This document shows, one piece after another, positions 12,066 through 57,457 of a DNA stretch of 64,000 nucleotides; position 1 is the stretch's first letter, and each line of letters starts with the position of its first letter. Where the stretch lies: IMG/VR virus record IMGVR_UViG_3300047489_000453, positions 1 to 64,000 of that record, one strand, 5' to 3'. Made by a program: the position numbers and the translations under genes. The notes under the pieces were generated by a model. The model saw only the letters and a program-made list of their open reading frames with translations. It did not search any database and was not told where the DNA came from. The DNA comes from a virus.

Positions 12066-13700
12066 TTATACACTTCTTACGGTTATTTCAATATCAGCCT
12101 TGTCTAAAAAGTAGCAGACTGTGTTAGGGGTAACCATGCTTGCAGGCTCGTCAGGTATATCAAGTCTCGTCTTCCCATTAATAAACCTTATACGGCCACT
12201 TGGATATATTATTCTTCCTCGCAGATCAATTGAGTGAATTGACTGATCATTAGTTAGGGTGTTTTGAATTACGGCTATGATATTAGACTCATAAAGACTA
12301 GCACCAAATCCTAGGTTGCTAACATAATTATATATGTTATCGCGTATTGTGTCAGTTAACACTGTGTAATCTTTATTTCTATTGTCTATAGTTATTGATA
12401 CGGCTACGTCAAATGGTATGGCCGCCTTTACAAGAATGTCAGAGCCTGACGGCCTAACACCCCTTCCACCAAGAAAAATTTGAAGGTCTGGTAAATTCTT
12501 TTGATACCTTAGCGTAAGTCTATAGTTAGCCTTTGCGCCTAACGCTACAGCCGCATCAGTGTCTGTATCTAAAAATTTGACTACGGCTGTTTGATAAGGT
12601 GAAAAAGCAGCTTCAACGCCCTTCTCTATTTCTGGAGAAAACCCGGTACCGTTGTCAGTAAGATCGTAAGCCCTGATAATACTTGTTACCTCGTAACCGT
12701 TTACTATAGATAGATTGTCTTTATCGGCCTCTCTAACTACCCTGGTTGCCTCGTAAAATCCAGGTGCTACGGTTCTAGGAAGAGACACCTGCCACGTGCC
12801 GCCCGCTATGCCCTGCTCTACAAGTGTAGCCACAACATCAGCATTTATTTTTGACGGCAGCCCTGTGTTTCTAATGTAGGCATCAACTCTTCCACCGTGA
12901 GCTACAGGAAACAGCCCATGATACCTGACCTGTTCTGGGTCGCCGTAGCCTATGCACGACACGTCATGAACTGAGGAGTAGTATGTCTTTATAAGAGATT
13001 CTAGTGCGTATTTATTAGAAAAGTTTTTACCGGCTATTCCTTCTTTGAGCCTGTTTATAAGCTCCAAGTTTGTCTCAGGACTAGTGCCTTCCGCAAAATC
13101 TACATTAACAGATGCATACAGGAATCCGGGTATTGGATTACTCATCTCAAGTCTATCGCCCTGTTTTAGGGCTGTATCTTCGCCCGTATTGACTGCCTCA
13201 ACATTTATATTAAATCCGTAAGTCCCATCTCCCAAAGAAAACATAAGTCTATCGGTAGGTATTACTAGGGATTGTGAGCTCAATTTAGCCGAGTACGTGG
13301 CCGTAGAAGCATATGACTTTCCAAAAGACGTAAACACAGCCCCTTCGGCTATCGATACGCTTTTAAACTCAGAAACAACTATGGTTATTTCACCGTTTGA
13401 TTTTGATCCTTCCTTTCTAGTTATAAGAAAATTGCTCAATACGGCGTCGACAAGAGCGTCGTCAGCAATAGTTGGATCTGCTTCAATGGCGCTTATAGAC
13501 CCAGCTTTTCTAAACTTGTCTGCGTACGTCTCCTGAGCCGCATGAACTACGCTCTCTAGGTATAAAAGCAGGTCATGTAAAACGCCTCGCCTGAAGTCCG
13601 CCGTCGGGCTTTTCTCCTGCAGCCTTTGAATAAGCAAAGCCCTAGCGGCAGTTACACTTGCCACGTCGAGATTAGTAAGTGACGGAAAACTTATGGCCAT
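12066..13700 (-). CDS. Baseplate wedge protein, J/gp6-like
   Basis: 544 aa. The overall pattern is that of baseplate J-like wedge proteins: an N-terminal helix with FRRGVLHDLLLYLESVVHAA, a beta-rich segment with IAEGAVFTSFGKSY, then EGTSPETNLELINRLKEGIA, and a C-terminal region built from alternating beta strands. In T4 the equivalent gp6 forms the ring around the hub and triggers sheath contraction. It follows the gp25-like gene by 5 bases, the usual gp25-gp6 order. GAGGTAA lies before the ATG. A frame-fitting family match could not be run, so the call rests on pattern and synteny. Confidence 0.75.
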   Translation of the reverse strand: MAISFPSLTNLDVASVTAARALLIQRLQEKSPTADFRRGVLHDLLLYLESVVHAAQETYADKFRKAGSISAIEADPTIADDALVDAVLSNFLITRKEGSKSNGEITIVVSEFKSVSIAEGAVFTSFGKSYASTATYSAKLSSQSLVIPTDRLMFSLGDGTYGFNINVEAVNTGEDTALKQGDRLEMSNPIPGFLYASVNVDFAEGTSPETNLELINRLKEGIAGKNFSNKYALESLIKTYYSSVHDVSCIGYGDPEQVRYHGLFPVAHGGRVDAYIRNTGLPSKINADVVATLVEQGIAGGTWQVSLPRTVAPGFYEATRVVREADKDNLSIVNGYEVTSIIRAYDLTDNGTGFSPEIEKGVEAAFSPYQTAVVKFLDTDTDAAVALGAKANYRLTLRYQKNLPDLQIFLGGRGVRPSGSDILVKAAIPFDVAVSITIDNRNKDYTVLTDTIRDNIYNYVSNLGFGASLYESNIIAVIQNTLTNDQSIHSIDLRGRIIYPSGRIRFINGKTRLDIPDEPASMVTPNTVCYFLDKADIEITVRSV

Positions 13701-13705
13701 AATTA

Positions 13706-14200
13706 TTACCTCGAGGGCACTACTGATACCGGTACAACAAATACTCTTGAAGCTCCGGCCAGACTATTAATACGAAGAGATATAGTTAACTTTGATCCTG
13801 CTACTACTTGAACTCCCAAAAGGTCTACGCTTCCATACTTCTCATCGTCTTGATAAGTAGTATTTAGATCCTCCTGCAGCAGGTTAAATTCAACTTCAGC
13901 TTTAGCTGAGTTAAATATTATTGCGGCGTCGAACTCTGTTCTTACCCTTCCTGATCTAACTAGGCTTAAAAACGATGATCCCCTGTCTGGAAGATACAGT
14001 AGCGATCCTTTTGGAGTTAAAAACTCAATAAGCCATCTTTGCACTAGCTTCTGTACACCTGAGCATACTTTTCCTGACGTATTATTTTTGCCGTACAAGT
14101 GCTGGTCGAGTTCAAATAGCTTGTCCGAAAACGTTCCGTCTAGGGCAAGAACATCCACCTTTCTATTTGTATAGTCAGTAGTTTTAGCGGTAGATGCCAT
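13706..14200 (-). CDS. Baseplate wedge protein, gp25/W-like
   Basis: 164 aa. The central motif GVQKLVQRWLIEFLTPKGS, with LYLPDRGSSFLSL, matches the gp25/GPW pattern of a helix leading into a short loop and a conserved acidic-Gly pair. In other phages this protein starts the sheath from the baseplate. It is directly upstream of the J-like gene (5-base gap), as is usual. The C-terminal 50 residues are beta-rich and longer than in the minimal family. Confidence 0.65.
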   Translation of the reverse strand: MASTAKTTDYTNRKVDVLALDGTFSDKLFELDQHLYGKNNTSGKVCSGVQKLVQRWLIEFLTPKGSLLYLPDRGSSFLSLVRSGRVRTEFDAAIIFNSAKAEVEFNLLQEDLNTTYQDDEKYGSVDLLGVQVVAGSKLTISLRINSLAGASRVFVVPVSVVPSR

Positions 14201-14212
14201 AACTCGCCCTCA

Positions 14213-14683
14213 CTATCTTTGCGACTTTTCAATTATTTTTTGGACGTAACCTAATACGCCGCTTGGACCTATAAAAGGTCCTTTTCCATCCCCTTGCCCT
14301 TTTCTTCTTCCTGCTGCCAGGGCTTCACTTTTGGCCAGTCCAGTGTATCTTAAATTCATCGCCCTTTCCATTGCCTGTAAATAAGCGGCCTGAAGCTTAA
14401 GAGCTTTTACGTCTCCGTCAGTTCCTGGAGACTCAACGTTAAATATTAGCCCGTAGTCCCTGTCTATTTTTTTTAATCTTGAGAATTCTTCTTTAGTATT
14501 AGCAGTGTTGTAAGGATTCTTTTTGTTTGTAAAAAGTAACGCCTGATTCCAGTCCCTAGACTCTCCTCCCTGAACCATATATTTGTGCATAGAGTCCGAC
14601 TGCTCTGACAGCTTTTTTATGTTGTCTTCAAAAGTTATGTCAGGGCCGCTTACTACAGACTTTCCGTAATATATTGAGCTCAT
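14213..14683 (-). CDS. Hypothetical baseplate-region protein
   Basis: 156 aa, overlapping the end of the sigma-like gene by 4 bases (ATGA), with GGTAGGGGTG upstream. It is helical and basic near the C-terminus (AAGRRKGQGDGKGPF), then ends in an amphipathic helix. No domain is recognised. It lies between the sigma-like factor and gp25-like protein and may be either a baseplate component or a partner of the sigma factor; translational coupling favours a partner slightly. Confidence 0.55.
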   Translation of the reverse strand: MSSIYYGKSVVSGPDITFEDNIKKLSEQSDSMHKYMVQGGESRDWNQALLFTNKKNPYNTANTKEEFSRLKKIDRDYGLIFNVESPGTDGDVKALKLQAAYLQAMERAMNLRYTGLAKSEALAAGRRKGQGDGKGPFIGPSGVLGYVQKIIEKSQR

Positions 14684-15744
14684 AGCACCCCTACCTTTTC
14701 TCTGCTATCAAGTTTCTTTTGAATTTCCGCTCTTATTTGACTTACTCTAGCCGGGGATATGCCCAGCTTCCTAGCTAAAGCCTCGTTGTCTAGTACTTCT
14801 TTTCCGTTCATACCAAACGTATGCTCCATGACCATTTGAGATCTTGGGTCAAGCCCGTCGTATACGAACCTTCTCCAAGCGTCTCCGCTGTCAGACGTCC
14901 CAGGAATGTTTACAGCTGGGTCATTAACATACTCGTCATCACCAGAAAACATAGCCTCAGTTGCGGCTCCTTCTGATATGCCTGGCTTAAATGACCTTAT
15001 GGTTTCTATTCTTTTTAGAGACATGCCAGTGTGGTCGGACAGCTCTTGGTCTGTAGGCTCTCTGCCAAGCTTATCCGTGAGCTCATTCATGGCCTGGTTT
15101 AAATGGTAACTGTCTATCTGCACTCTCTCTGGGACGTTTAAAATTTGGTTAGATTTAGCGTAAACCCTCCTAAGGCCTTGAAGGTGGGCCATAAGATGAG
15201 TCTTTAGCTTAGCTTGAGCAGGATCGTATGTATTTAAAGCCTCTAAAGCCATCCTATTGGCATGCAACCTTACACTTGGTGGGACATCTTGACCGACATA
15301 GCTTTTCAAAGCAGCTTCAATTATAGGCTGAATTTTTTGCAACATCATATCGTTGCTTTCTGGAGTTTGATTCTTCTTCCAGTTATTAAAAGACTCCTCA
15401 TATTCAGGCTCTATTTTGAGCTGGGATGATGGCTTCATATTAAATGGCTCATTTGCTTTTGAGCCATACGGGCTAGCTGGCTTGCTTGTACCGTCTTGAG
15501 GTTGGGCTGGAGCCATCAATGGAGGCTGTTGAGGCTGCGCCGGCGGCTGACCGAACATAGGGGCGGTGTTTTTAGGGGCTTCAGGCTCGCTAGAGGTGCC
15601 TGTAATAGCAGTATCGCTTAGGACAGAATTATTGTTATCGTCTGATGAGTCCAACAACGATTTAGGCTTGTTGGCCTGATTTTTTTGCCCCAAAGAAAAC
15701 ATAGTGGGGACGTCTCCAAAATTTTTCCTACCCATACTACTCAT
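14680..15744 (-). CDS. Sigma-70 family RNA polymerase sigma factor
   Basis: 354 aa. Residues 1-110 are low-complexity, rich in Pro and Gln. The rest follows the sigma-70 order. Region 2 (about 125-207) contains YDPAQAKLKTHLMAHLQGLRR followed by ILNVPERV, which parallels the YDP-x(4)-KF-x-TYA ... R-x-IRIP-x-H pattern of regions 2.3-2.4 to 3.0. Region 3 (about 212-250) has LTDKLGREPTDQELSDHTG. Region 4 (about 295-347) has LDPRSQMVMEHTFG and the helix-turn-helix ALARKLGISPARVSQIRAE. It probably gives promoter specificity to an RNA polymerase, either the phage enzyme encoded at 47.7-57.5 kb or the host core. Its place among baseplate genes is unusual. The palindromic repeat at 15705-15718 falls in codons 9-14. 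Confidence 0.85.
   Translation of the reverse strand: MSSMGRKNFGDVPTMFSLGQKNQANKPKSLLDSSDDNNNSVLSDTAITGTSSEPEAPKNTAPMFGQPPAQPQQPPLMAPAQPQDGTSKPASPYGSKANEPFNMKPSSQLKIEPEYEESFNNWKKNQTPESNDMMLQKIQPIIEAALKSYVGQDVPPSVRLHANRMALEALNTYDPAQAKLKTHLMAHLQGLRRVYAKSNQILNVPERVQIDSYHLNQAMNELTDKLGREPTDQELSDHTGMSLKRIETIRSFKPGISEGAATEAMFSGDDEYVNDPAVNIPGTSDSGDAWRRFVYDGLDPRSQMVMEHTFGMNGKEVLDNEALARKLGISPARVSQIRAEIQKKLDSREKVGVL
15705..15718. repeat. Palindromic site, one mismatch
   Basis: TGGGGACGTCTCCA, codons 9-14 of the sigma-70-like gene. Confidence 0.75.
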
Positions 15745-15753
15745 AAATCACCA

Positions 15754-17379
15754 TTACTTTTTATCTAGTTCAGACCCTATCCATACATTGTCATATAATG
15801 GATGCTCAGCTAATGTAAATGACGAATTAGCTTCCTCAGCGTGCGTTCTTATGTGGGCCACGTTATATACCGTGCTTGCAACCGAAGAGTTAGCATCTAT
15901 TGAATATGATACTCTAACAACTACTCCGTAAAAATACTTATTGTCGCCCGCGTCAGGCAGGTGGTAATCCTCTGGTATTTCAAATTTTATTTGACTGCCT
16001 ACCCCTATGTCGAACCTAAGAGGCCCGGATATGGTGCCCTGTCTTCCTTTTATGACTTCCAGGCCATATACGCATTTGGCATAAGCATCTCTAATTCCTT
16101 TGTATTCTTTTATCATCTCCCCAACTGATTTTTTTGATGGGGGCTGTAACTTTTGAGGATTAGGCGCCCCGCCCAAGCTGTTTTTATCAGCGCTGCCAGC
16201 AAAGTATGAGTAGTCGATACTTAGCCAGCTAGGAGGGTGCTTAAACAACATAGTGCCTTTACATCCTAGAGCCTGATTTATATACACGCCGCCCATAGTA
16301 AGATCAGGAGGAAGGGGCTGCTCATGCGGACCAGCAAACGGCTGCACATTCTGAGGGAATACTATGGCTACGCCTCTTAGTGTCCTGGGACAATCTCCCG
16401 ACACAGATATTGAGTCAGCTTGGTCAGCTGTTATTGTTTTAAATGGTTTTTTGTTTTTACCGACCGCAACTGGGCAAAATGGCACCACCTCCGCCGATTC
16501 GACGTGCGGTATGACCGCAAACATATAGTTACCGCTGCAGGCTATAAGACAGTCCCACAATGTCTGGCCTGCTAGATTTTCCAAGTAAACATTAGATATG
16601 TCATTTACTATTGATCTGCCAACGTCAGATGCCTGGGCATCTAGTAAGGTTATTTTAAGCGGGGCGCCCGTACTAGTTATTTTTTTAAGAGCGCTGCTGG
16701 CCGCTTTGTTAAGTATATCGGCCTCGGTACAAGACCCTAGAGTTTGCCTATTTAGATCAGCCAGATTATCTGTGGTGGCTGCTGTGTTTAATATTTTTTT
16801 AAGACCACTTTCCCAAAAATCATCACACAAACCTCCAACACCGTCAGCAGCATTTATCATCCAGCTTGCCGCTAAAAACGCAGGCTTACCTCCTTGAGTG
16901 AATTCTGCTGAAGGACCATTTTTAAAAAGGGCGGCCCTTTGAAGATCAGCTGGAGTAGCGTAGTGCGTGCCAGTGCTTAACATCGTGGAAGCCGATAAGT
17001 CTGAAAGCCAGTGCTCCATTGATATGGTTAAAACAGCCGCTCCTGCTGTTCTTTGAAAACCAAACCCAGCTATATACCCGTCAAATATTAGTTTGCTATC
17101 AAATTGAGGTATTGGGTTAGTTACGCCCGAAGTGCTCTGCTCTTTGTAAGCGGCATATATTTTTATACCTTTTCTAAATAAAAATTTATCATTTATGGCG
17201 GCCGCCACGGCTTTATTTGAGTTTACGTCCCTGCCTAAAGCCAACGTAGCCGTAGCCGCTGGTATTCCATTAAGAGTAAACTCAGCATTAATATTAACGA
17301 CGTCAAGGACGTCGCTACTGCCGTCTATAACGGCATAGCATTTAACCAGCCTTTTAGAAAACGATTGATCTCTAAGCAC
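15754..17379 (-). CDS. Baseplate hub-like protein (gpD/gp27-like)
   Basis: 541 aa. It begins with a GTG that overlaps the upstream stop (TAGTG) and has GGAAGG 7 bases before. The N-terminal segment VVNINAEFTLNGIPAATATLALGRD is the typical opening of late-control gene D and related hub proteins, which form the tube-like ring between tail tube and spike. Large middle and C-terminal parts are beta-rich with DLTMGG-type loops. The order tape measure - small tail proteins - hub - baseplate wedge supports this. No lysozyme domain is present. Confidence 0.6.
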   Translation of the reverse strand: MLRDQSFSKRLVKCYAVIDGSSDVLDVVNINAEFTLNGIPAATATLALGRDVNSNKAVAAAINDKFLFRKGIKIYAAYKEQSTSGVTNPIPQFDSKLIFDGYIAGFGFQRTAGAAVLTISMEHWLSDLSASTMLSTGTHYATPADLQRAALFKNGPSAEFTQGGKPAFLAASWMINAADGVGGLCDDFWESGLKKILNTAATTDNLADLNRQTLGSCTEADILNKAASSALKKITSTGAPLKITLLDAQASDVGRSIVNDISNVYLENLAGQTLWDCLIACSGNYMFAVIPHVESAEVVPFCPVAVGKNKKPFKTITADQADSISVSGDCPRTLRGVAIVFPQNVQPFAGPHEQPLPPDLTMGGVYINQALGCKGTMLFKHPPSWLSIDYSYFAGSADKNSLGGAPNPQKLQPPSKKSVGEMIKEYKGIRDAYAKCVYGLEVIKGRQGTISGPLRFDIGVGSQIKFEIPEDYHLPDAGDNKYFYGVVVRVSYSIDANSSVASTVYNVAHIRTHAEEANSSFTLAEHPLYDNVWIGSELDKK

Positions 17380-24734: not shown

Positions 24735-27353
24735 TTATCCTATGATTTTATAATTACCATCAGGAGGCGTACCGTTTTCAGACCCAGGGTTTTTTTGATC
24801 TTCTATTCTTTGAGAAGGTTTTAAGTCATAAAACATTAAATCAACTTCTTTCATAGAAGGATCTTCCGTCCAGGCCTGCCTACCAGGATAAGGATAAGTA
24901 TCTTCGCTTAAATACACAACAGGATTTTCCGTCCATGCGGACCCTCCTCCGCCAAACAGCCTATCTCTTTGTTGCCACCTGCTTTCGTATAGTTTGAATG
25001 CAGTCGCCTTGTACTCTTCTGTAGATTTAAATTTAAAGGCGTTTTTACCCCATCCACCAGACGTATCAGCGTCTCCTATTTGACCACCTTCTGTAAATGG
25101 ATTTTTTATAAAGGCCTCATATAGATCATCTCCAAGCTTATTAATGTTCTCAACATACTCTTTTATCTTCTCAAGAGAGTCCTGAGCCTTTTGTTTGGCC
25201 GAAGTTCCAGAGTCATCTACTTCGTCGCTAAGTTCGCCGACAAAATAGTTGAAGGTCTTGGCCTGGCCTGTGGCTATGTGGCCTTCTACAGCTATTACGT
25301 ACCGTTTACATATAAGGTTTCCAAGCCCACCAATATCTCCGTCTGCGTATATTGGAGAACCGGTAACAGTAGTTGTCCCTGTAAAAGAGTTAGACGAGGT
25401 GGCCGCCCCAGGAGATCCAAAGAAGTCATATCTGCCTTGGTTAACAAATACCCCCATTCTTTCTGAGGATATGCACACGTCGCCACTTCCTTCACTACCA
25501 GCATCTATAATTACATTTCTAGCTGAGCCGTCGGCGCCTGATCTTAAATAAAGGTCTTCAACTGATAAGAGATTGATGCCCCCAGCGGACCTCAGCACTA
25601 TGCCCTTTTCTACCCTGCTTTTATTTTCAATTATAAGGTTGCCTTCAGATTCTCCATTACCGGCCAGTATCATAGTATTCTTTTCAGCTTTTAACCTGAC
25701 ATCGGCGTCTGTAGAGCTTACGTCTATATCTTCTTTGGATCTTATGGCCGTAGACCTACCGGCTAGGGATATAAGATTTCTTCCTGGTCTAAGTTGAATG
25801 TCGCCTGGGCAGCTTATCTCTATAGATCCGCCCACCATTCTTATTTCTTCGCCATGCGGGCCAGCTATTACTATGGCTCCGTCAGGCATAATCTTAAAAT
25901 AAGACAGCAGATTATTGTATTTAGCGTCGTATCTGTGATCCACTTTCTTAGTGGTTCCAGTGGGAGGAGTTATATACCATTGCCCTGAAAGCTGGCCGTA
26001 AGCCGGTGAGTCTTCTGTCTCAGGGTCTTCATAGGTTATAAAGTCATTTTGATGGTAGACAAACGGATGTTCGTTTCTCCATGCAAAAGAGTACGCAACA
26101 TCGTCATCGGCTATTAATACTCTTGCTGGAAATTCTTGGGCGTCTATTGGAGTGTCGGTAATCTTGTGATCCTCGCCGCCGCCTACCGAACCAGAAAACT
26201 TATAATTATCCTTGGTATCTCCGCTTTCCTCGTCCTCCATTCTTCTAACTCTAGCTGGAGATTTGTATAGAGGCGAGTGAGCTATGGTGATTCCTTGGGA
26301 GGACCTTATATGGTAATTGCCGTCAAGCGCAAGGTGCTGCTCCCAGGCTATATCTCCGCCTCTTTTACCTAGCTCATTAATGCCGCCGCCCTCAGGAGGT
26401 AGCCTCAAAAACTGCCTAAACCCTTGGCCTAGGTATCCTGTAAATGATTGCAGCCTGTGATATGGCACTTGGGTTTCTAGGCCTATGTCTTTAGCCGCAT
26501 CCGTATATCCGTCATCTTTTAACTGGGCGGTCCTTGTACCGCTTTCCAGAGCACCAAGTCCTTCCCACGGGTATGTAGCATACCCTACGTATCCAACGCA
26601 CTCAGAAGTGTCATTAAAGAACTCTTGCTCATGGGCGCACGACCTTATCTGTATGTTGTGGCCTTGCATTCTGGCTACTTGGTCAAAGTGAAAGGCCCAG
26701 AAGCCGCAATTCTCGTCTGACTTTATAAATGACATAAACGGGTCTATGAATATAGCTGTGCCAGTTTCACATACCCAACCTCTTTCTCCAACTAAGGTAG
26801 AATCTACAGGGGAACCTCTGGAGAAATCTCCCAAGCATTCTTTGTCAAATAAAGTAAGACTATTATTGGTGCCTTCAGCCGTTGTGAAAAAATTAGTGGC
26901 CATCGATATCACTTCTGGAATAACATCGCCCATGTAGGGCATGGCGTCTGGCTCTACGCCTATTATGGTTCCAGTAGTGCCGCTATATGGCTTAATGTAA
27001 TGCACTTTTGTATGCGGCTGAATACTACCTATTCTTCTGGCGCCAATAGGAGTATTTGAGCAATCCGACATTAGGTTACATACGACGGCATGGCCACCAT
27101 TAAAAGATATAACCTTATACCATCCATAAAACGGAAGCACCTCGGCAACTATACCGAGATATACGTTATTTGAGTTAGACAGATCTTGATAGCTTACAGC
27201 AGTAGACGAATAAGGGTCTGAGTTAGACTTTGTAGGCCTAATAGGATTATCGCGTGAAATAATGGAAGCTACGTTTCTTACGGCCTCGTTTACTTTTGGA
27301 AAAAACGAATTAACTATGTCACCAAAATTAAACTCGTCTGGGGAATGCGACAT
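24735..27353 (-). CDS. Baseplate central spike protein (gp5/VgrG-like)
   Basis: 872 aa from the ATG at 27353; GGAG lies 5 bases before it, while the earlier ATGs at 27356 and 27368 have poorer spacing. The N-terminal part contains an OB-fold-like stretch (YLGIVAEVLPFYGWYKVISF). Residues about 500-640 are repeats of short beta strands with Gly/Asp turns (DGAIVIAGPHGEEIRMVGGS, GDIQLRPGRNLISLAG), as in the triple-stranded beta-helix of T4 gp5 and VgrG spikes. The last 200 residues are charged and Gly-rich. No lysozyme motif is visible. It forms, by inference, the membrane-piercing tip below the hub. A terminator directly upstream separates it from the tube genes, so it probably has its own promoter or read-through supply. 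Confidence 0.7.
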   Translation of the reverse strand: MSHSPDEFNFGDIVNSFFPKVNEAVRNVASIISRDNPIRPTKSNSDPYSSTAVSYQDLSNSNNVYLGIVAEVLPFYGWYKVISFNGGHAVVCNLMSDCSNTPIGARRIGSIQPHTKVHYIKPYSGTTGTIIGVEPDAMPYMGDVIPEVISMATNFFTTAEGTNNSLTLFDKECLGDFSRGSPVDSTLVGERGWVCETGTAIFIDPFMSFIKSDENCGFWAFHFDQVARMQGHNIQIRSCAHEQEFFNDTSECVGYVGYATYPWEGLGALESGTRTAQLKDDGYTDAAKDIGLETQVPYHRLQSFTGYLGQGFRQFLRLPPEGGGINELGKRGGDIAWEQHLALDGNYHIRSSQGITIAHSPLYKSPARVRRMEDEESGDTKDNYKFSGSVGGGEDHKITDTPIDAQEFPARVLIADDDVAYSFAWRNEHPFVYHQNDFITYEDPETEDSPAYGQLSGQWYITPPTGTTKKVDHRYDAKYNNLLSYFKIMPDGAIVIAGPHGEEIRMVGGSIEISCPGDIQLRPGRNLISLAGRSTAIRSKEDIDVSSTDADVRLKAEKNTMILAGNGESEGNLIIENKSRVEKGIVLRSAGGINLLSVEDLYLRSGADGSARNVIIDAGSEGSGDVCISSERMGVFVNQGRYDFFGSPGAATSSNSFTGTTTVTGSPIYADGDIGGLGNLICKRYVIAVEGHIATGQAKTFNYFVGELSDEVDDSGTSAKQKAQDSLEKIKEYVENINKLGDDLYEAFIKNPFTEGGQIGDADTSGGWGKNAFKFKSTEEYKATAFKLYESRWQQRDRLFGGGGSAWTENPVVYLSEDTYPYPGRQAWTEDPSMKEVDLMFYDLKPSQRIEDQKNPGSENGTPPDGNYKIIG

Positions 27354-47260: not shown

Positions 47261-47680
47261 TTAAGAGTCATAATCCGTAATATTTACATTTAGCAGGCTT
47301 CTAGCCGCTACTCCGCTCTTTATAAAATTTAGGAAGTTTTGAAGATTCCTAATTTCAGCCATCTTAGCATAATTAGTTTGTGAATTAATAGTGGAGACAT
47401 CTCCACGATTAATTTGTTGTACAGGAGAAGGAGGCTGAATGACTGGCTGGGGATTATTAGATTGGGTCGTCACTATAGGCTGACTCTGTACTCTAGGCTG
47501 TATATTAGGGCTAGTATCTACTGACTTTACAGCCACTTCAGAAGGCGGCTTACCCTTAGTGGCCTCGTTTACTTGCAAAGGTTTTAGTGTTTCTTTTTCT
47601 GTTTTAGACTGGGACCCTTCAAGTTTTAAAGACTTGTCGGCCTGCTTCCAGGTAGCCCACTTTTCTAAAAAGGTTTGCAT
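47261..47680 (-). CDS. Small linker-rich protein, RNAP-operon neighbour
   Basis: 139 aa. Residues 40-95 are Pro/Gln/Ser-rich and disordered; the last 40 are helical (MAEIRNLQNFLNFIKSGVAA). Its ATG overlaps the stop of the beta-prime C-terminal gene as TAATG, implying coupled translation. The fully symmetric palindrome variant 47391-47406 reads RGDVSTIN here. Could be an accessory of the polymerase or an internal virion protein. Confidence 0.5.
   Translation of the reverse strand: MQTFLEKWATWKQADKSLKLEGSQSKTEKETLKPLQVNEATKGKPPSEVAVKSVDTSPNIQPRVQSQPIVTTQSNNPQPVIQPPSPVQQINRGDVSTINSQTNYAKMAEIRNLQNFLNFIKSGVAARSLLNVNITDYDS
47391..47406. repeat. Palindromic site, 16 bases with one central substitution
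   Basis: GTGGAGACATCTCCAC, in the 139-aa linker-rich gene, reading RGDVSTIN. Arms are complete over 7 bases each. Confidence 0.8.
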
Positions 47681-49590
47681 TATAGTACGCCCTTGCTCTG
47701 TTCAGGCACTTTGCCAAGCTCATTAACGTCAAATCCTTTTACCTTACCTTTACGACCAAAATCAACAGCTTTTGCCAATGATGGCACATATGATGTGCCA
47801 GCTTCGTCGCTTATGGCGCCTCTATGCACAGCTTGTAAGGTAGATTTTCTTAGATTGCTCCCCAGCATTCTAGTCATCCAGTCAGGGTCATGCTGAAGAT
47901 TTTCTAGACCTCTGACAAAATGGGGCTCAAACGGTGGAGGTTCTTTGTGGACTGTAATATCTTTTATGCCAAATTTTTCAAACTCTCTAACCATAGACGG
48001 CCTTATAGGCGTGCCTATCGTATAGTGAAGAACAGGTTTTTCCAAATAGCTTCCTACTCCTTGATTAGGCTTAACCGTTCTACTGTCTTGTCTAGGCTCC
48101 CATACGCTTTCAACTGAGTCATAAGGTATGACGTCGTCAGGGTTAAACTGATTATATTCGTCATTCATGATGACATGGTTGATAAGGCCTTTGGACATTA
48201 CCTCTATATTTCTGCGATGGCCGTACATGCCGGCCTCTTTCATTGCAGTCCTAAAAGAATTAACGAATTGGCGACGGCCCTCGCCTATTCCCCTAAACTT
48301 AGTAAATTGAGCAGGGTTGGGAATACCAGAGGATATGACATCTCCGGCTTCTACAGTATCGCCTACCTTTACTGAAGCGGAAGCCTCAGGGCTGACGTAA
48401 TGTTCTACGCCGTCTATAGTTACAAATACACCACCAGTAGGCGCAGGTTTAATATTTGATACTCTACCGTCCTTTTGTGCATGAGTAGCCCAGAATGGAG
48501 ACTGCTTAGGGATTTGCACTAATTGATTGAGGTGCCTAAAACCAGACACAGACGCGGACGCTCCTGCGATACCGCCAGTGTGTTTAGAGTTTAGCTGCCC
48601 TTGAGAAATGGGCTCTGATAAAGCCTGCATAGCAGCAATTCCAACAGCATCTCCTATAGGTGCAAGACCTGATCTTTCTCTAATTCCTAGGTCCCTTGCA
48701 TATAGCCCTCCACCGGCAGCTCCCGACGCTATTGGGCTCCTGATGACTATTCTGTCTATGTTCTTTGATTTTAAATCTTTAAGAACTCTAGGCGTGAGCA
48801 CAGTGTTTCTTCCGTAACCTCCGGCAGGCATTCCTAATAGTGCGCCTTCGTTTTCCTCGTCATCCGTGTCTACCGGCATCCCCCTGTTCTCTATTGATTT
48901 AGGGTCGTCAGCATCTTCGCCAGTAACTATCATCCTGTGGCCGATTTGATTTAATTGCTTGGAAAAGAAGCCTGCGTCCATAACTGAGAACTTGGTATCT
49001 GTGATACCTTTTCGTGTACCAAAGCTCCCTGCGAAGTATTCAGACGGAGTTAGTCCTTTTGAATAAGAGTTAAATACTGGTATTGGTATTTCTCTATCGT
49101 GATGATCGGTATATAAAATGTCGCCGCCTCTAAGGCTTTTGAGGTTTTTAGGCTTACCTCTGGACCCGGACTGAATTTGCCTAGCTAACTGATTTCCTTC
49201 AGCGCTAGCTTCATCAAATATACCTTTTTCTAGATCTTTTTGAGAATTAGCTAAGATAGCTACAATTTGTTTATTCTTATCGTCATCAGTGAGCTGTCTA
49301 TTTGAAATAATTGAGTCTATAGCTGCTTTAAGTTTTAGTTTTCTGTCGTGATAAAATTTTGATTCCCTAAGATCGCTAAGACCAAAAGAGAAGCCACCAG
49401 AGTTATATGACACGTCTCTACCGACGTCCATAAGCCCTTTGGCTATCTGTCTGTATTTGTCTGGGTGATTTTCTGCTACCGTCTGAAGAATACCTTGAAC
49501 TGCTTTGGTATCTAGAACTCTAGAGTAGTCCTTAAGCTCGTCAGGAAGCGCGTCATTAACCATGATTTGACCTATAGTGGTCTTTAACAT
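47680..49590 (-). CDS. RNA polymerase beta-prime subunit, C-terminal part
   Basis: 636 aa. It begins with the beta-prime segment KTTIGQIMVNDALP ... DVGRDVSYNSGGFSFGLSDL, which parallels the TTxGR ... GF-x-YATRSG-x-S-x-x-x-DDM stretch of cellular beta-prime. Bridge helix: SKGLTPSEYFAGSFGTRKG, residues about 177-215. Trigger-loop helices: GDAVGIAAMQALSEPISQ with HTGG, about 312-340. Between them the usual zinc-binding segment RSPLTC ... GVCxxCYGxDL is present as RSPIASGAAGGGLYARDL: all four cysteines are gone. It complements the N-terminal beta-prime part fused to beta at 53006-57457; together they make a full catalytic core without alpha or omega genes in sight. TATAGGAGAG precedes the ATG. 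Confidence 0.9.
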   Translation of the reverse strand: MLKTTIGQIMVNDALPDELKDYSRVLDTKAVQGILQTVAENHPDKYRQIAKGLMDVGRDVSYNSGGFSFGLSDLRESKFYHDRKLKLKAAIDSIISNRQLTDDDKNKQIVAILANSQKDLEKGIFDEASAEGNQLARQIQSGSRGKPKNLKSLRGGDILYTDHHDREIPIPVFNSYSKGLTPSEYFAGSFGTRKGITDTKFSVMDAGFFSKQLNQIGHRMIVTGEDADDPKSIENRGMPVDTDDEENEGALLGMPAGGYGRNTVLTPRVLKDLKSKNIDRIVIRSPIASGAAGGGLYARDLGIRERSGLAPIGDAVGIAAMQALSEPISQGQLNSKHTGGIAGASASVSGFRHLNQLVQIPKQSPFWATHAQKDGRVSNIKPAPTGGVFVTIDGVEHYVSPEASASVKVGDTVEAGDVISSGIPNPAQFTKFRGIGEGRRQFVNSFRTAMKEAGMYGHRRNIEVMSKGLINHVIMNDEYNQFNPDDVIPYDSVESVWEPRQDSRTVKPNQGVGSYLEKPVLHYTIGTPIRPSMVREFEKFGIKDITVHKEPPPFEPHFVRGLENLQHDPDWMTRMLGSNLRKSTLQAVHRGAISDEAGTSYVPSLAKAVDFGRKGKVKGFDVNELGKVPEQSKGVL

Positions 49591-51521: not shown

Positions 51522-53009
51522 CTAACGCTTAGAGCCTATCTCTTTAAGCAAATTCAAGAACTTTTCATTAAGTTCTTGCTTCTTTTGTGCTGCTGCCATC
51601 AAGTATTCGTCAGTGGCAGGATCGCCTTCAGGTTTAAACCCTATTAGTCCTAGCAGCGATTTTAGCCTACTTGGAGCCGTTCTCGCCAGATATCTTTCTA
51701 TTTTTACTTTTCTCTCTTCAGGTGGAAGGTGCTCATGGCTGTCAAACCTTAAAGCTCTTCCTTCGCTTTGCGACCCTCTGCTGGTATTCCAGTGCGGGTC
51801 CAGTAGCTGCACTAGCTTTGTGCCTTTAAACGATAGCCCCTCTGTTCCGGCTGGGCCTAGCAGAGCCACCTTTAACTTATCAGCATTAAAATCATCTACT
51901 AGTTTTTTCCTTTCCTTGTCGCTTAACGCCCCTGTAAAGGAGGCGGCAGGTATACCAGCTTTATTTAATGCAGCCAGGTAAGGAGACAAGCCGGCGTCAA
52001 CAAAATTAGAAAATACTAACGCCTTGCCTCTTGGGTCTGTCTTAAGAAGGGTATTAAGCCTATTAAACGCCTCGTTTAGTTTTGGAGACTCTTTGAACGC
52101 CTTCATAGGGTCGGCATTATCTTTCATAAATGGAAGAGTGGATAAGCCTACTTGTCTTGGTCCTGTTAAAAAGCTTACTAACTTTTTTGACTCCTCATCT
52201 GTGAGAGGGTAGTTAAGTTGTAGCTTCCATTTAAGAAGAGTCGGCAGCTTTCCAAACAATTGATTATATAAATCTGTCTGGTCTCTGCTCATCTCTACTA
52301 TTACGTCTTCTCTGTTAATGTCAGCTCTTGGTTTTAAAGGAGCAAAGTAATCTACCTTACCTTTTAATGATTTTTTTAGCTCTTCCACGTTTTTTAATTC
52401 TGGGTCGTGGGCTTTTACATTTAGAAGCAGCTTATACCATGGGGCCTTTTCTGGTTTGCTTACGTACCTTTCAGAGAAGGCCTCAGGCGTCATTTCGCTA
52501 TCGGTAAGTACGTTATAAGGTACGGCAAAGTCGGCTGGGCTATTAACTATGGGGGTTCCAGTAAGAAGAACAGCTTGTCTAGCCTTCCTTGCTGCCTCTA
52601 AGAGATTCTTAGTCTGGGCTGACTCCATATTTCTAAATCTATGAGCCTCGTCTACTAATAAAGATTCGGGATGCTCTATAGGCTTGCCCATAGCCAGTCC
52701 CGTATGGCTCATTATTGATGACGGGGTAGCAGTTGCAGGATCTATAAATTTTTCCTGCTCTTTTTTAAGATTAGTTCTAAGAGCTGCCGGCACTATGGCC
52801 GTGTAAGGAATTTTAGTAGCATCAGCGGCCGCCAGACCGCTTAAAGTCTTGCCCGACCCAAGACTATGATAGAGCAGCATTCTAGCTCTATCTTTTTTAT
52901 CTATCTGTTCTTGAACCTTGTCTACAACGGCCTGCTGATGCGGCTGTAGATTTACGCCTTGAGCTAAGTCGGCCTGCTTACAAATTGTGGAGACGTCGAC
53001 ACTACTCAC
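51522..53009 (-). CDS. Superfamily 2 helicase/ATPase, NPH-I/D6-like
   Basis: 495 aa, starting with a GTG that overlaps the polymerase stop (GTGA). Helicase motifs in order: Walker A LLYHSLGSGKT, Walker B VDEAHRFRN, motif III LLTGTPIVNSP, then GKALVFSNFV, GTEGLSFKGTKLVQLLDP and motif VI QSEGRALRFDSHEHLPPEER. The last motif, with SHEHLP, is closest in appearance to transcription-associated ATPases of poxviruses and related viruses (NPH-I/D6-like) and SNF2-like helicases, rather than to recombination or replication helicases. Its coupling to the RNA polymerase gene suggests a role in initiation, elongation or termination by the phage enzyme. Translocation could also be along DNA in the virion. 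Confidence 0.85.
   Translation of the reverse strand: MSSVDVSTICKQADLAQGVNLQPHQQAVVDKVQEQIDKKDRARMLLYHSLGSGKTLSGLAAADATKIPYTAIVPAALRTNLKKEQEKFIDPATATPSSIMSHTGLAMGKPIEHPESLLVDEAHRFRNMESAQTKNLLEAARKARQAVLLTGTPIVNSPADFAVPYNVLTDSEMTPEAFSERYVSKPEKAPWYKLLLNVKAHDPELKNVEELKKSLKGKVDYFAPLKPRADINREDVIVEMSRDQTDLYNQLFGKLPTLLKWKLQLNYPLTDEESKKLVSFLTGPRQVGLSTLPFMKDNADPMKAFKESPKLNEAFNRLNTLLKTDPRGKALVFSNFVDAGLSPYLAALNKAGIPAASFTGALSDKERKKLVDDFNADKLKVALLGPAGTEGLSFKGTKLVQLLDPHWNTSRGSQSEGRALRFDSHEHLPPEERKVKIERYLARTAPSRLKSLLGLIGFKPEGDPATDEYLMAAAQKKQELNEKFLNLLKEIGSKR
52987..53002. repeat. Palindromic site, two mismatches
   Basis: GTGGAGACGTCGACAC at codons 3-8 of the SF2 ATPase gene, reading SVDVSTIC. Confidence 0.65.
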
Positions 53010-56000
53010 TTTCCTGTCTCCATTATCACGACTCTATCGTTAATATCTATGTCGCCAGATCTGTAAGCTCTTATAGCGTCAGCTTTGGTCTTAAAGTATT
53101 TCTCTGGTCTTTTTGAAGGAGCAGCGGATGCAGCGTATAGCCCGCCCTGATACTCGTTAGCTGGAAGCTGATGAACTTTAAATGACTTAGCTGCCATAAG
53201 GTTACGACTTGGCAACATCTTTTCCATCGCGTCTTTTACAGCCTCGTCCGTGCTTGGAACGTGATAGTTCATGGCATCGCCATCAAAGTCGGCATTAAAA
53301 CCTTTTACTATTATTGGAGACACCTGTAGCGTGCTACCTTTTACCAGCTTAGGCTTAAACGCCATTACACCATATCTGTGAAGAATAGGCGCCCTTGTCA
53401 CTATTACGGGCCTTGCGTCCATCTCGGCAACCATGGCGTCTCTGGCCATGTTGTCTTTCTTATCAATCATGTCGGCAGCTTTAAACCTATCAACGCCTCT
53501 ACGAATAAGACGCCTCATTATAAACGGTTTATATACTGACCAGGCTCTATCCTCTGGAAGGCCTACTTCGTCCATGTCCAGATCAGGGTTAGGAGTAATT
53601 GCCGCCCTTCCTACCATATCAACTTGAGAGCCTAAAAGTTTTCTTTGAACAACGCCAAACTTAGGATTATCTCCGAATACTTGCTTTAATATTCCTTTTA
53701 CGTTTTTCTTTTCAAGCTTTGGATTAACAGAATCTCCAAGGCCAGTTATAGCCTTAAATGAGTCATAAAGAGCTAGTCTGTGTTGAGACAAGTCAGAAAA
53801 TGACTTTGAAGCTTCTCTGAACTCATTATTAACGTCGATAAGTTCCTTGTATAGGTAGTTAGCATCTCCGACCATCGGTAGACCGTTGTTAGACATTATA
53901 CTTACAGGTCTAAACACTGGAGGCAAAACGGGTACTTTTGTAAGCATCCATTCTGATGGGTGTATCTTAAGGTTCTTAGCGCTCTTAAGATAACTAAGCT
54001 TTCTTACAGCGTCGTCCCTGTACGACTTTTTACCGGACGCAATTATAGCTCTGGCTTTGGCTATTTCTTGATCCACGTTCATGGATTTGAGCGCATTAGC
54101 TATGGCTGAGGGCCCAGAGGCACCTCCAAGCTGCTCTTTTCCAGCTAGTACGTCTCTAAATTTATTCTCAGTTAGACCTAGAACTCTTCTTATAGGGTCT
54201 TCCATAACAGGGTTAGGCATTGCCTCGTGAAGCTTTATATGGCTCCACATGTTGCCGCCATGCCCGCCTGTAAGAGATACGTCAAATAGACCGCCACCAG
54301 CAGGCTCAAGACCTTTGCCCCAGTCTACTGTATCTGATTTTTTGATTTCCCTATTTCCTGACAGGGAATCTATATCCTTGTCAGTAAGGGCCATAAGTTG
54401 TGTCTTAGTTCCACTTCTTACAGGGTTTATTCCAGACGCCTGGAGCTGAGCCATGAACTTTCTGTAAGTCAGTGGGACTCTAGGTATTGGAAGAGGTCCG
54501 CCTGTCATAAAGGACGCCCAGTAATCTTCGTTCTTCTGGCCCCTTATAGCGCCGGCATCCCTAAGTACTTCGTGAGCGCCGTGTGACAATAAAGCGTTAA
54601 CGTCCATTAATGATACGCGCTTGCTTCCTTCTTCACCGCCCTTGGCCGGAGTCTCTTCAGAGGTATATCCGCCGCTGCCTATACCTCTACCCTGGCCTTT
54701 AGACTCCGAGGTATGGTGTAGCTTTAAAAAGAACCTGTTTCCTGTGAATATGCCTTTTATTTTTCTTCCAGTCTCCGGGTCTTCAATATCTTCCTTGTCG
54801 CTCATGTTATTTTTTTTAAGTTCATTAAGAGCAAACTCGGTAAGATCCTGGATGTTTTCAAAATCTTTTACCGCGTACCTTTTTCCAGTCTTTGCAGCTA
54901 TCTTTCCTAGAGCAGCCTCAATCATCTGACTTGGGTTTGTTCTAGATATAACGCCAAGGGGATTAAGAAGAATGTCAAAAGGATTGCCCTCTGAATCTCT
55001 AGGCATTTTTGAATCTGGAATAACGGCGGATATAACTCCCTTATCGCCATATCTACCTGACAGCTTGTCGCCTTCTTTTGAACTGCTAAGGCTTTTTACA
55101 GTTACTGATACTCCCTTATTTGTCTTGGTAACATCTGTAACTACGCCATCGTTTTCGTGGTCCCAGGTAATAGATGCATTACTAAACCCAGTCTTTGACC
55201 TGCCTATCTGTTGATTGTGTGACCTTGAAAGAATTTTGGCCTGTAAAAATAAAGGGTCTCCCTTTCTTACTACAGTGCCTGGCTTTATGGCGCCGTCATC
55301 GTCCAGAGAGTCAACTACCTGTCTAGAATAGTCTGAAGGAAATAATGTTAGAAATCCTCTTTTGCCTTCTTTAGTTTCCTTGCCAAATTCAGCTTGGTGC
55401 TGATACATGTGCTCTGACGTTAATTTTTTAGCGGCGCTTTCAGATATAACTACAGCGTCTTCAAAGTTATAGCCTTTATAAGGAATGTAGGCGGTTCTAA
55501 GATTAATGCCCAGAGCAGCTGTACCTTTTTCATCGGTATAGTTTGACCTTGCTAACAGCCCGCCTTTTTTTACCATATCGCCAACTTTTACAGTTGGAGT
55601 GTTGTGTAAAAAGGTTTTTCTATTAAAAGGTAAATTGTTGTATATCTCTTGCTTGTAAAGCTTTCCGTCTGTTCCTCTAATTCTAACCTCGTCGTTGTCG
55701 GCATAAATTACTTGGCCATCAACATCAGAGTAGGCTGCGCCCATATGCTTGCCGTATTCCTCTTCATATGATTTATCCTCTTCGCCAAGCTTACCGGACT
55801 GCACAAGTGGGGCCTCTGGATTTTTCAGAGGCAGAGCCTGGGTAAGCATTCTTGAACCCATCACTACTCTTTGGCCAAATGTAGCGCTCTTAAGCGGAAC
55901 CATGTTGGCAAGGTGATTAAAGGCGCTGTCCATTCTAGGCAGTTCGAAGTCAACATCTTGTCTATCAACATATTTAATCTTACCGCCGGCCATAGCGGCT

Positions 56001-57457
56001 ACTTTAGTCTTTGATTTATCTATGAGCTGGTTTGGAAACGCTATTACTGACTGGGCCATCTCTTGCGGAGTTTTCCAAACTTCATCACCTGTTCTTACAT
56101 CTCTAAACTTAGAATAAACTTTTCCGTCTACGCCTTTGCGGGCGTTTGTAGCTATTCTGCTATCAATACCCACCTTAAGTGACTCTGGCGTAAGCAGAGG
56201 ATCTATGTAGCCAAAGTGAGATGGCTGAACGTTTCTAGCTTCTTCTGGAACAGCTTGCAAGGAAGGAATGCCGCCTTCGCCGAGACGACTTACTCTGGTG
56301 ATTTGATTTAATAAATCAGCTGGATTTACTTCTTCAAGAGGCTGGCCCAAGCCGCTTTTCATAATAGCGGAATTAACCTGTGAAGATAAAAATCCAGGAG
56401 CAAATGGCGATAAGTTTTGTTTAAAGCTGGCCTTCCACAGCAGAGGGCGCATAACTTTATAAGCAGCCCTAATTCTTTCAGTAAATAAATCTTCAGGGCC
56501 ATACAGATTCTGATAGGCCATGGCGTCTCTGTCGTCTGGATCTGCCTCTTTTCTATGCACAGCTAATATTCTTTTTGTGGCTGCCAACACTGAATCAACT
56601 GACAAGTTAGAGAAGCCTTTACCTAAAGTTGCAGCCGTAACTTCTGGATCAAGCTCCATTTTTGTCATGGCAGCTGCTACGGCTTTAGCTTTACTTTCTT
56701 CGGTCATGGCCTCGCCAGGCTGTAGTCTTCCTATCTTTTTGAAGATCTTGTCTAGGTATTGAGGATCATTTTTAACTGCGTTTGAAGCGTATATCTCATT
56801 TCCCCACGCTTCCCTAATCTGCTTATCGCTAGCGCCCATAGCTTTAAGAACTGGCATAAGAGGCACATTAGACTGGCCAAATGAAATATTAAACACGCCC
56901 TTTTCTGGGCTTAAAGAGTATCTATGAGATAGCCCCTTGCCAGGCATTACGTTTACGTGGCTTTCAACGTCGCCGCTATTTGTTATTCTTGTAAATACAC
57001 CCGGCCTTAGCCTCATCTGGTTAGCCAAGGTATACTCAGTGCCGTTTACTATATAAGTTCCTCTATCTGTTAGGTAGGGAATCTTAGCTATAGTTGTCCT
57101 CTTGCTTTCAAGCACCTTGCCCGTACTATTATCGATTAGATTTATTGTACCTTTGAGGCCGCGACTGAGAGTTTCGCCTTTTAATATGGCTTCTTTTTGA
57201 GTCTTTATAGGCTTTACCTCTTCAGGGTCGCCCCAGCCTACATCTGTAATTGATAGAGTGTGTCTCTGGTTACTGAGAGGCTGTAACGACGAGGCTGCTG
57301 TCTGAACTCCGTTAAATATTGCAGCTCTAGTAGCCTTTATGTCATCAAACCCTCTCATGGAAGGGGCTTGCATAGAAGGAACTAAGCCGACCATTTTATT
57401 GGCCGGCTTAGGAATGAGGCCGCTGCTATCTGGCTGATCGGGAAGTACGCCGGCCAT
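53006..57457 (-). CDS. RNA polymerase beta subunit fused to N-terminal beta-prime
   Basis: 1483 aa. The beta part covers about residues 1-1050: GTYIVNGTEYTLANQMRLRPGV (fork/lobe), GYNFEDAVVISES at 662, GDKLSGRYGDKGVIS at 796, NPLGVISRTNPSQMIEAALG at 832, then LKLHHTSESKGQGRG at 911. The beta-prime part follows directly: MWSHIKLHEAMPNPV (about 1070), the clamp-like HPSEWMLTKVPVLPPVFRPV (1166), LLGSQVDMVGRAAITPNPDL (1274) and RAPILHRYGVMAFKP, ending with NADFDGDAMNYHVP at 1388-1401, whose three Asp hold the catalytic magnesium. The protein stops 82 residues later. The rest of beta-prime is a separate gene. No zinc-ribbon cysteines were seen at the start of beta-prime. GGGAGATAAGC precedes the ATG. 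Confidence 0.93.
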   Translation of the reverse strand: MAGVLPDQPDSSGLIPKPANKMVGLVPSMQAPSMRGFDDIKATRAAIFNGVQTAASSLQPLSNQRHTLSITDVGWGDPEEVKPIKTQKEAILKGETLSRGLKGTINLIDNSTGKVLESKRTTIAKIPYLTDRGTYIVNGTEYTLANQMRLRPGVFTRITNSGDVESHVNVMPGKGLSHRYSLSPEKGVFNISFGQSNVPLMPVLKAMGASDKQIREAWGNEIYASNAVKNDPQYLDKIFKKIGRLQPGEAMTEESKAKAVAAAMTKMELDPEVTAATLGKGFSNLSVDSVLAATKRILAVHRKEADPDDRDAMAYQNLYGPEDLFTERIRAAYKVMRPLLWKASFKQNLSPFAPGFLSSQVNSAIMKSGLGQPLEEVNPADLLNQITRVSRLGEGGIPSLQAVPEEARNVQPSHFGYIDPLLTPESLKVGIDSRIATNARKGVDGKVYSKFRDVRTGDEVWKTPQEMAQSVIAFPNQLIDKSKTKVAAMAGGKIKYVDRQDVDFELPRMDSAFNHLANMVPLKSATFGQRVVMGSRMLTQALPLKNPEAPLVQSGKLGEEDKSYEEEYGKHMGAAYSDVDGQVIYADNDEVRIRGTDGKLYKQEIYNNLPFNRKTFLHNTPTVKVGDMVKKGGLLARSNYTDEKGTAALGINLRTAYIPYKGYNFEDAVVISESAAKKLTSEHMYQHQAEFGKETKEGKRGFLTLFPSDYSRQVVDSLDDDGAIKPGTVVRKGDPLFLQAKILSRSHNQQIGRSKTGFSNASITWDHENDGVVTDVTKTNKGVSVTVKSLSSSKEGDKLSGRYGDKGVISAVIPDSKMPRDSEGNPFDILLNPLGVISRTNPSQMIEAALGKIAAKTGKRYAVKDFENIQDLTEFALNELKKNNMSDKEDIEDPETGRKIKGIFTGNRFFLKLHHTSESKGQGRGIGSGGYTSEETPAKGGEEGSKRVSLMDVNALLSHGAHEVLRDAGAIRGQKNEDYWASFMTGGPLPIPRVPLTYRKFMAQLQASGINPVRSGTKTQLMALTDKDIDSLSGNREIKKSDTVDWGKGLEPAGGGLFDVSLTGGHGGNMWSHIKLHEAMPNPVMEDPIRRVLGLTENKFRDVLAGKEQLGGASGPSAIANALKSMNVDQEIAKARAIIASGKKSYRDDAVRKLSYLKSAKNLKIHPSEWMLTKVPVLPPVFRPVSIMSNNGLPMVGDANYLYKELIDVNNEFREASKSFSDLSQHRLALYDSFKAITGLGDSVNPKLEKKNVKGILKQVFGDNPKFGVVQRKLLGSQVDMVGRAAITPNPDLDMDEVGLPEDRAWSVYKPFIMRRLIRRGVDRFKAADMIDKKDNMARDAMVAEMDARPVIVTRAPILHRYGVMAFKPKLVKGSTLQVSPIIVKGFNADFDGDAMNYHVPSTDEAVKDAMEKMLPSRNLMAAKSFKVHQLPANEYQGGLYAASAAPSKRPEKYFKTKADAIRAYRSGDIDINDRVVIMETGK

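Follow-up and report, generated by a model that had tools for sequence, protein, structure and literature searches.

The locus examined here raises the question of what a sigma-like protein encoded among the baseplate genes of a phage would do, and in particular whether it may serve an RNA polymerase of the phage itself, redirect the host core enzyme or form part of the particle. The window, meaning the whole stretch analyzed, comprises 64,000 nt (positions 1 to 64,000) of the IMG/VR virus record IMGVR_UViG_3300047489_000453. The full record measures 137 kb and is probably a fragment, close relatives being 181-190 kb, and many other IMG/VR records may likewise be fragments.

The gene is an unbroken reading frame of 354 aa on the minus strand (14680..15744). 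Searched as a single sequence, it matched Pfam Sigma70_r3 above the cut-off (1.6e-9) and Sigma70_r4 below it (0.0024), and no match to Sigma70_r2 (PF04542) was found with Pfam in this frame or elsewhere in the genome. PHROG 351, annotated as RNA polymerase sigma factor, was also matched (1.6e-10). A profile built from 28 relatives aligned to SigA across regions 2-4 (E=2.5e-19), with region 3 matched in all 28 relatives and PF04542 in only two. AlphaFold2 predicted three domains, mostly with pLDDT >90, on the minus strand: sigma2 (residues 113-201; 15142..15408), sigma3 with an LGREPTDQEL motif (residues 206-251; 14992..15129) and a helix-turn-helix sigma4 (residues 286-351; 14692..14889). In the model the N-terminus is flexible, as is the linker at the place expected for the sigma finger. 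The top 50 Foldseek matches to this model were all sigma chains, with no baseplate protein among them, and their global TM-scores were low because domain placement differs. Region 2 was missed by Pfam because it is so altered, though the family profile and the model indicate that it is real. The original prediction, that full regions 2, 3 and 4 are visible, was therefore too strong for the single sequence, where only region 3 passed its cut-off; at the level of the family, regions 2 and 4 do match a sigma profile, though the Pfam region 2 model does not match. The Pro/Gln-rich N-terminal extension that it described is present (approximately residues 50-110), is modeled with low confidence or as disordered, and is peculiar to the window phage, being much shorter or absent in the relatives. 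Profile comparison and structure prediction together confirm the frame as a sigma-70-family protein with a predicted sigma2-sigma3-sigma4 order.

The divergence of this family shaped how relatives were found. The window sigma used as a single protein returned no match in IMG/VR and alignments were needed, and the scan was run with two sub-alignments, the 28-member alignment being too divergent as one. The top match in a phage database, labeled "Bacteriophage sp.", was rejected as a bacterial contig carrying sporulation-type sigma genes. Several records labeled as phage, such as MT835749, OR844998 and AFYI01000006, appear to be bacterial, with sporulation sigma genes and host rpoBC, and pollute similarity searches.

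The gene was said to lie between baseplate wedge and hub genes, and this is borne out by PHROG, Pfam, AlphaFold2 and Foldseek. On the minus strand the order is hub, sigma, a 156-aa partner, a gp25-like protein and a J-type wedge protein. The hub (15754..17379) was assigned from its AlphaFold2 model, which in Foldseek matched contractile injection system hubs, VgrG, Mu gp44 and T4 gp27. The gp25-like gene (13706..14200) was assigned from PHROG 975 (E=1.7e-5) and synteny, and the wedge gene (12066..13700) from PHROG 6 (8e-18) and Pfam Baseplate_J (6e-14). The conserved partner gene (14213..14683) shares 4 nt at its start with the end of the sigma gene, and the two are translationally coupled; its product carries the consensus YLxxMERAFRxRH and is possibly a sigma partner or a part of the wedge. 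In the isolated relative Arash, a Salmonella phage, and in Vibrio phage D69 the sigma occupies the same baseplate slot, and Arash Gp11, which is detected in virions, occupies the slot of the 156-aa partner. Searching by sigma alone gave 79 loci, some of them in records that had been found before, and 72 of these had a hub, gp25 or J gene within approximately 4 kb on the same strand. Weak matches (HMM E 1e-14 to 1e-15) resembling ordinary sigma factors account for four of the seven loci lacking a nearby baseplate gene. As a functional need, however, the baseplate placement does not hold up, since 9 of the 26 relatives with both sigma and J have them 9-131 kb apart (distances on linear records) and the polymerase is still present.

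The window also encodes a multisubunit RNA polymerase on the same strand. The larger gene (53006..57457, minus) encodes a 1483-aa protein in which beta is fused to the N-terminal part of beta', with an intact catalytic motif, NADFDGD; it is a homologue of Arash Gp206. Pfam matches of the phage polymerase were Rpb2_6 (2e-54), Rpb1_2 (2e-24) and Rpb1_5 (1e-17). The C-terminal part of beta' is a separate 636-aa protein (47680..49590, minus; homologue of Arash Gp216), so the polymerase described at the outset as fused is fused only as far as the beta' N-terminus. An SNF2/DEAD-type helicase gene (51522..53009, minus; homologue of Arash Gp217) lies directly after the larger polymerase gene. The window polymerase lacks the beta' zinc-binding domain and retains the coiled coil of the clamp. 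Related polymerases were found in 297 IMG/VR stretches, and full-length relatives occur in the named isolates Arash and Vibrio D69, D181 and D148. Most of the distant relatives have a single beta-beta' polypeptide of approximately 2,000-2,200 aa that also lacks the zinc-binding domain. In one close relative (G048, 33.7-44.9 kb) several insertions break up the polymerase gene and carry domains for intein splicing and LAGLIDADG endonucleases, and similar interruptions appear in other relatives.

Sigma and polymerase were found together from either direction. Strong sigma matches were observed in 27 of 47 polymerase records of at least 50 kb, and in 17 of 18 polymerase-found records of at least 150 kb. 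Conversely, the polymerase was present in 26 of 29 sigma-found records of at least 150 kb, as also in three first found by sigma. Where sigma is absent, the baseplate DNA is mostly missing as well, as indicated by sigma occurring in 26 of 31 J-positive polymerase records and in 1 of 16 J-negative ones; one 171-kb relative has polymerase and J with sigma missing. The nine relatives with a distant J gene and a retained polymerase imply that sigma goes with the polymerase more closely than with J. Other phage polymerase lineages (YerA41, Carin-5, RHph_Y65, Va2, 1.031.O) gave at most weak, HTH-only sigma matches. Sigma and polymerase distances were correlated (r=0.925; partial given J 0.83), although gp25 and sigma distances correlate nearly as well (0.906), so this correlation may reflect common descent and lends weak support. 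A second, canonical sigma with a DLIQAG-type motif and a WW pair was observed in some relatives, including Arash (gp196, 25657-26694) and the contig G035.

If the sigma serves the phage enzyme, the residues through which sigma factors usually meet beta' are of interest. In E. coli, sigma2 of the holoenzyme meets beta' at its clamp helices, with R275 and E295 in the interface with D77 and E81 of sigma32 (PMC10216364), and the beta' substitutions R275Q, E295K and A302D impair holoenzyme formation (PMC8321222). The clamp coiled coil, whose absence from the phage beta' would have spoken against a sigma partner, could be aligned in each of the 18 phage polymerases compared, and its contact residues are changed: R275 is kept in none, E295 in two and A302 in four. 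On the sigma side, across 28 phage sigmas and with some uncertainty in the very divergent region 2.2 columns, D403 and Q406 of sigma70, core contacts that not every sigma-70 protein strictly needs, are kept in none and W434 in two. Y430 is replaced by H in 22, which together with the loss of W434 in 26 implies a different -10 pocket. Canonical clamp-contact and -10 residues are thus mostly replaced in sigma2, while R441 (R193 in the window sigma) is invariant in all 28. Two host-directed controls behave differently, T4 gp55 having E/D at positions 403/407 and a cyanophage sigma keeping DDLFQEG. In these alignments the usual contact between sigma2.2 and the beta' clamp is thus changed on both sides in a coordinated manner. 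Counting against a sigma-core pairing, the window clade has a truncated beta flap tip, where sigma4 would dock. Loss of this tip from every phage core was considered and rejected, as the shortening is limited to the window clade and most cores keep a related segment.

Published proteomics of Arash virions (PMC10585845) bears on the suggestion that the sigma may be packaged. Gp10, the Arash homologue, was identified by 24 unique peptides with 100% coverage and is named as the polymerase sigma subunit in the particle list, so its presence in one virion is already published. The same data list 128 unique peptides for the core subunit Gp206, which is the most detected of all the particle proteins, 40 for Gp216 and 38 for the helicase Gp217; Gp11 is listed too, and the canonical second sigma, Gp196, is missing from the list. 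As spectrum counts partly track protein length, unique peptides per residue were used to rank the 72 Arash proteins of available length. Gp10 ranked first (0.103), ahead of the capsid (0.098) and Gp206 (0.084), and the core subunits and the helicase were also within the top ten. Ligase, primase and ribonucleotide reductase were at the bottom of the ranking; evident carry-over enzymes had 0.002-0.03 unique peptides per residue, with ligase, primase and uracil glycosylase at 0.002-0.007. The suggestion of packaging is thus supported for the relative Arash and would extend to the window phage by analogy.

Other sequence features of the phage were also examined. A promoter motif was sought in the intergenic regions and none was convincing. 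The sole strong repeat is a perfect 16-bp palindrome, GTGGAGACGTCTCCAC, with approximately 23 copies (at most 3 mismatches) along the 137-kb phage; it was rejected as a promoter motif, being mostly intragenic and not promoter-like. Ten copies fall in the window (5354, 9558, 15704, 24258, 31987, 33767, 40107, 47391, 52987, 61205) against 0.04 expected, and the copy at 15704..15719 (2 mismatches) lies 32 nt inside the sigma gene. The copies are approximately 6 kb apart, with a regularity far beyond what chance would give (coefficient of variation 0.39; 0 of 200,000 simulations). Among 2.9 million viral contigs, exact copies of GTGGAGACGTCTCCAC were limited to a small set, several of which are close relatives with many copies each. 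The palindrome resembles a site for partition or condensation, or one of the stoperator type. Separately, an N-terminal tag resembling AEEFGRMMGRMA is common to at least six proteins encoded at 79-87 kb of the record, and distant relatives carry F..DELEKIA near the N-terminus. Its enrichment at this particular position hints that it may direct sorting or capsid targeting. As a possible mark of head cargo, this tag was tested on the window sigma and core and is absent from both.

The reading that we consider probable is that the sigma is dedicated to the multisubunit RNA polymerase encoded by the phage, as its promoter-specificity subunit, and is packaged and injected as a holoenzyme with core and helicase. 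The core (the fusion of beta with the N-terminal part of beta' and the separate C-terminal part), the sigma and the SNF2-type helicase would be made alongside the structural genes and packaged into the particle, and a ready holoenzyme would then enter the next cell with the DNA and start at phage promoters without a host sigma. The parts of this reading differ in strength. Comparative sequence evidence strongly supports assignment of the sigma to the phage core, to which it would bind directly. Packaging together with the core is supported in Arash and presumed for the window phage, and the injection of the holoenzyme and its use on early genes may follow. The original prediction had offered two roles, serving the phage enzyme or redirecting the host core. 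The former is favored because of the two-way co-occurrence and the changed contact residues on both sides.

That second role, in which the protein would send the host core to phage promoters as T4 gp55 does, is the way most known phage sigma factors work, and the modeled retention of a three-domain sigma fold would suit it. We regard it as very unlikely here, since the acidic D403 residue is lost in all 28 phage sigmas while the host-directed controls keep theirs, sigma and phage polymerase go together in both directions, and Arash and G035 have a separate canonical sigma. Slightly less probable still is that the protein has become a structural component of the baseplate with no role in transcription. 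Its proximity to hub, gp25 or J in most of the independently found loci and the translational coupling to its neighbor agree with such a role, and the protein found in Arash particles could be bound to the baseplate there. Against this stand the nine relatives in which the gene lies far from J and the polymerase is kept, a sigma region 3 recognizable in every relative together with the invariant R441, and structure matches that include only sigma factors in the top 50.

The remaining alternative keeps the sigma with the phage polymerase and confines its use to the producing cell as a late factor, its presence in particles being carry-over. The gene does belong to a structural block of late type that shares its strand with the polymerase, and the window sigma lacks the packaging tag. 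The Arash authors themselves considered both early transcription and carry-over, noting that abundant enzymes may co-purify (PMC10585845). This explanation appears unlikely, given that Gp10 has the highest unique-peptide density of the proteins ranked, that core and helicase are also in the top ten while evident carry-over enzymes have low values, and that the second Arash sigma went undetected in particles. The packaged and injected holoenzyme is thus retained as the preferred reading.

The closest known proteins are Arash Gp10 (WGL32461.1) and VPHD69_0011 of Vibrio phage D69, which are homologous to the window sigma (28% and 26% over sigma2-3) and come from phages with the same baseplate slot and the same fused polymerase (32%). 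Unlike the window sigma, they have no Pro/Gln extension and their region 4 is degenerate. Gp10 is annotated as RpoS by similarity and the D69 protein as hypothetical, and neither was tied to a holoenzyme or a lineage. By its sequence features, the window phage resembles the mReC phages that Weinheimer and Aylward described in 2020 (PMC7481178), which are Caudovirales from IMG/VR whose beta and beta' are easily recognized; that study uses the polymerase as a phylogenetic marker and the word sigma appears nowhere in it. T4 gp55 is, like the window sigma, a divergent phage-encoded sigma for phage genes, but it acts on the host core, keeps the acidic clamp contacts and shows no sigma3 or sigma4 recognizable in alignment, and the window phage, unlike phages with a host-directed sigma of this type, encodes its own core.

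The specificity proteins of phiKZ/AR9-type polymerases had been described as unrelated to sigma, which is not wholly so, as the structures of AR9 gp226 and phiKZ gp68 resemble sigma (PMC9209446). They share with the window sigma the role proposed here, that of a phage specificity subunit of a phage multisubunit polymerase, and a sigma2-like domain. They differ in having no sequence similarity to sigma and in belonging to a non-virion enzyme, whereas the window sigma is recognizable by sequence, has the sigma2-sigma3-sigma4 order and has a relative found in virions. AR9 gp226-type proteins also have extra N- and C-terminal domains, in contrast to the plain three-domain layout and clear sigma match observed here. 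The phiKZ/AR9 virion RNA polymerases are multisubunit and particle-borne, like the polymerase in Arash, but consist of several split subunits, belong to another lineage and have no sigma homologue according to reviews (PMC13282480, PMC7598289).

More broadly, it is about an even prospect that these phages form a deep tailed-phage lineage in which each particle carries a complete sigma-70-type holoenzyme (beta-beta' core, its own sigma and an SNF2-type helicase) that would begin transcribing the injected genome independently of the host, its sigma and clamp having diverged together from the bacterial interface so that host sigma factors do not exchange with its own. A tractable system for asking how a viral holoenzyme is packaged, whether it passes through a contractile tail, which promoters it reads and how the interface evolves away from that of the host is offered by Arash with its laboratory host. 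What is new here is the sigma family, the finding that it accompanies the core across the lineage, and the altered interface, for which we found no earlier report in the open-access literature. Reviews to 2026 separate phages with multisubunit polymerases, which lack sigma homologues, from sigma-bearing jumbo phages, which lack polymerases and use their sigma on the host enzyme (PMC7598289, PMC13282480). The family described here breaks this split, pairing a recognizable sigma with a phage core across tens of genomes, with both found in the particle of one isolate.
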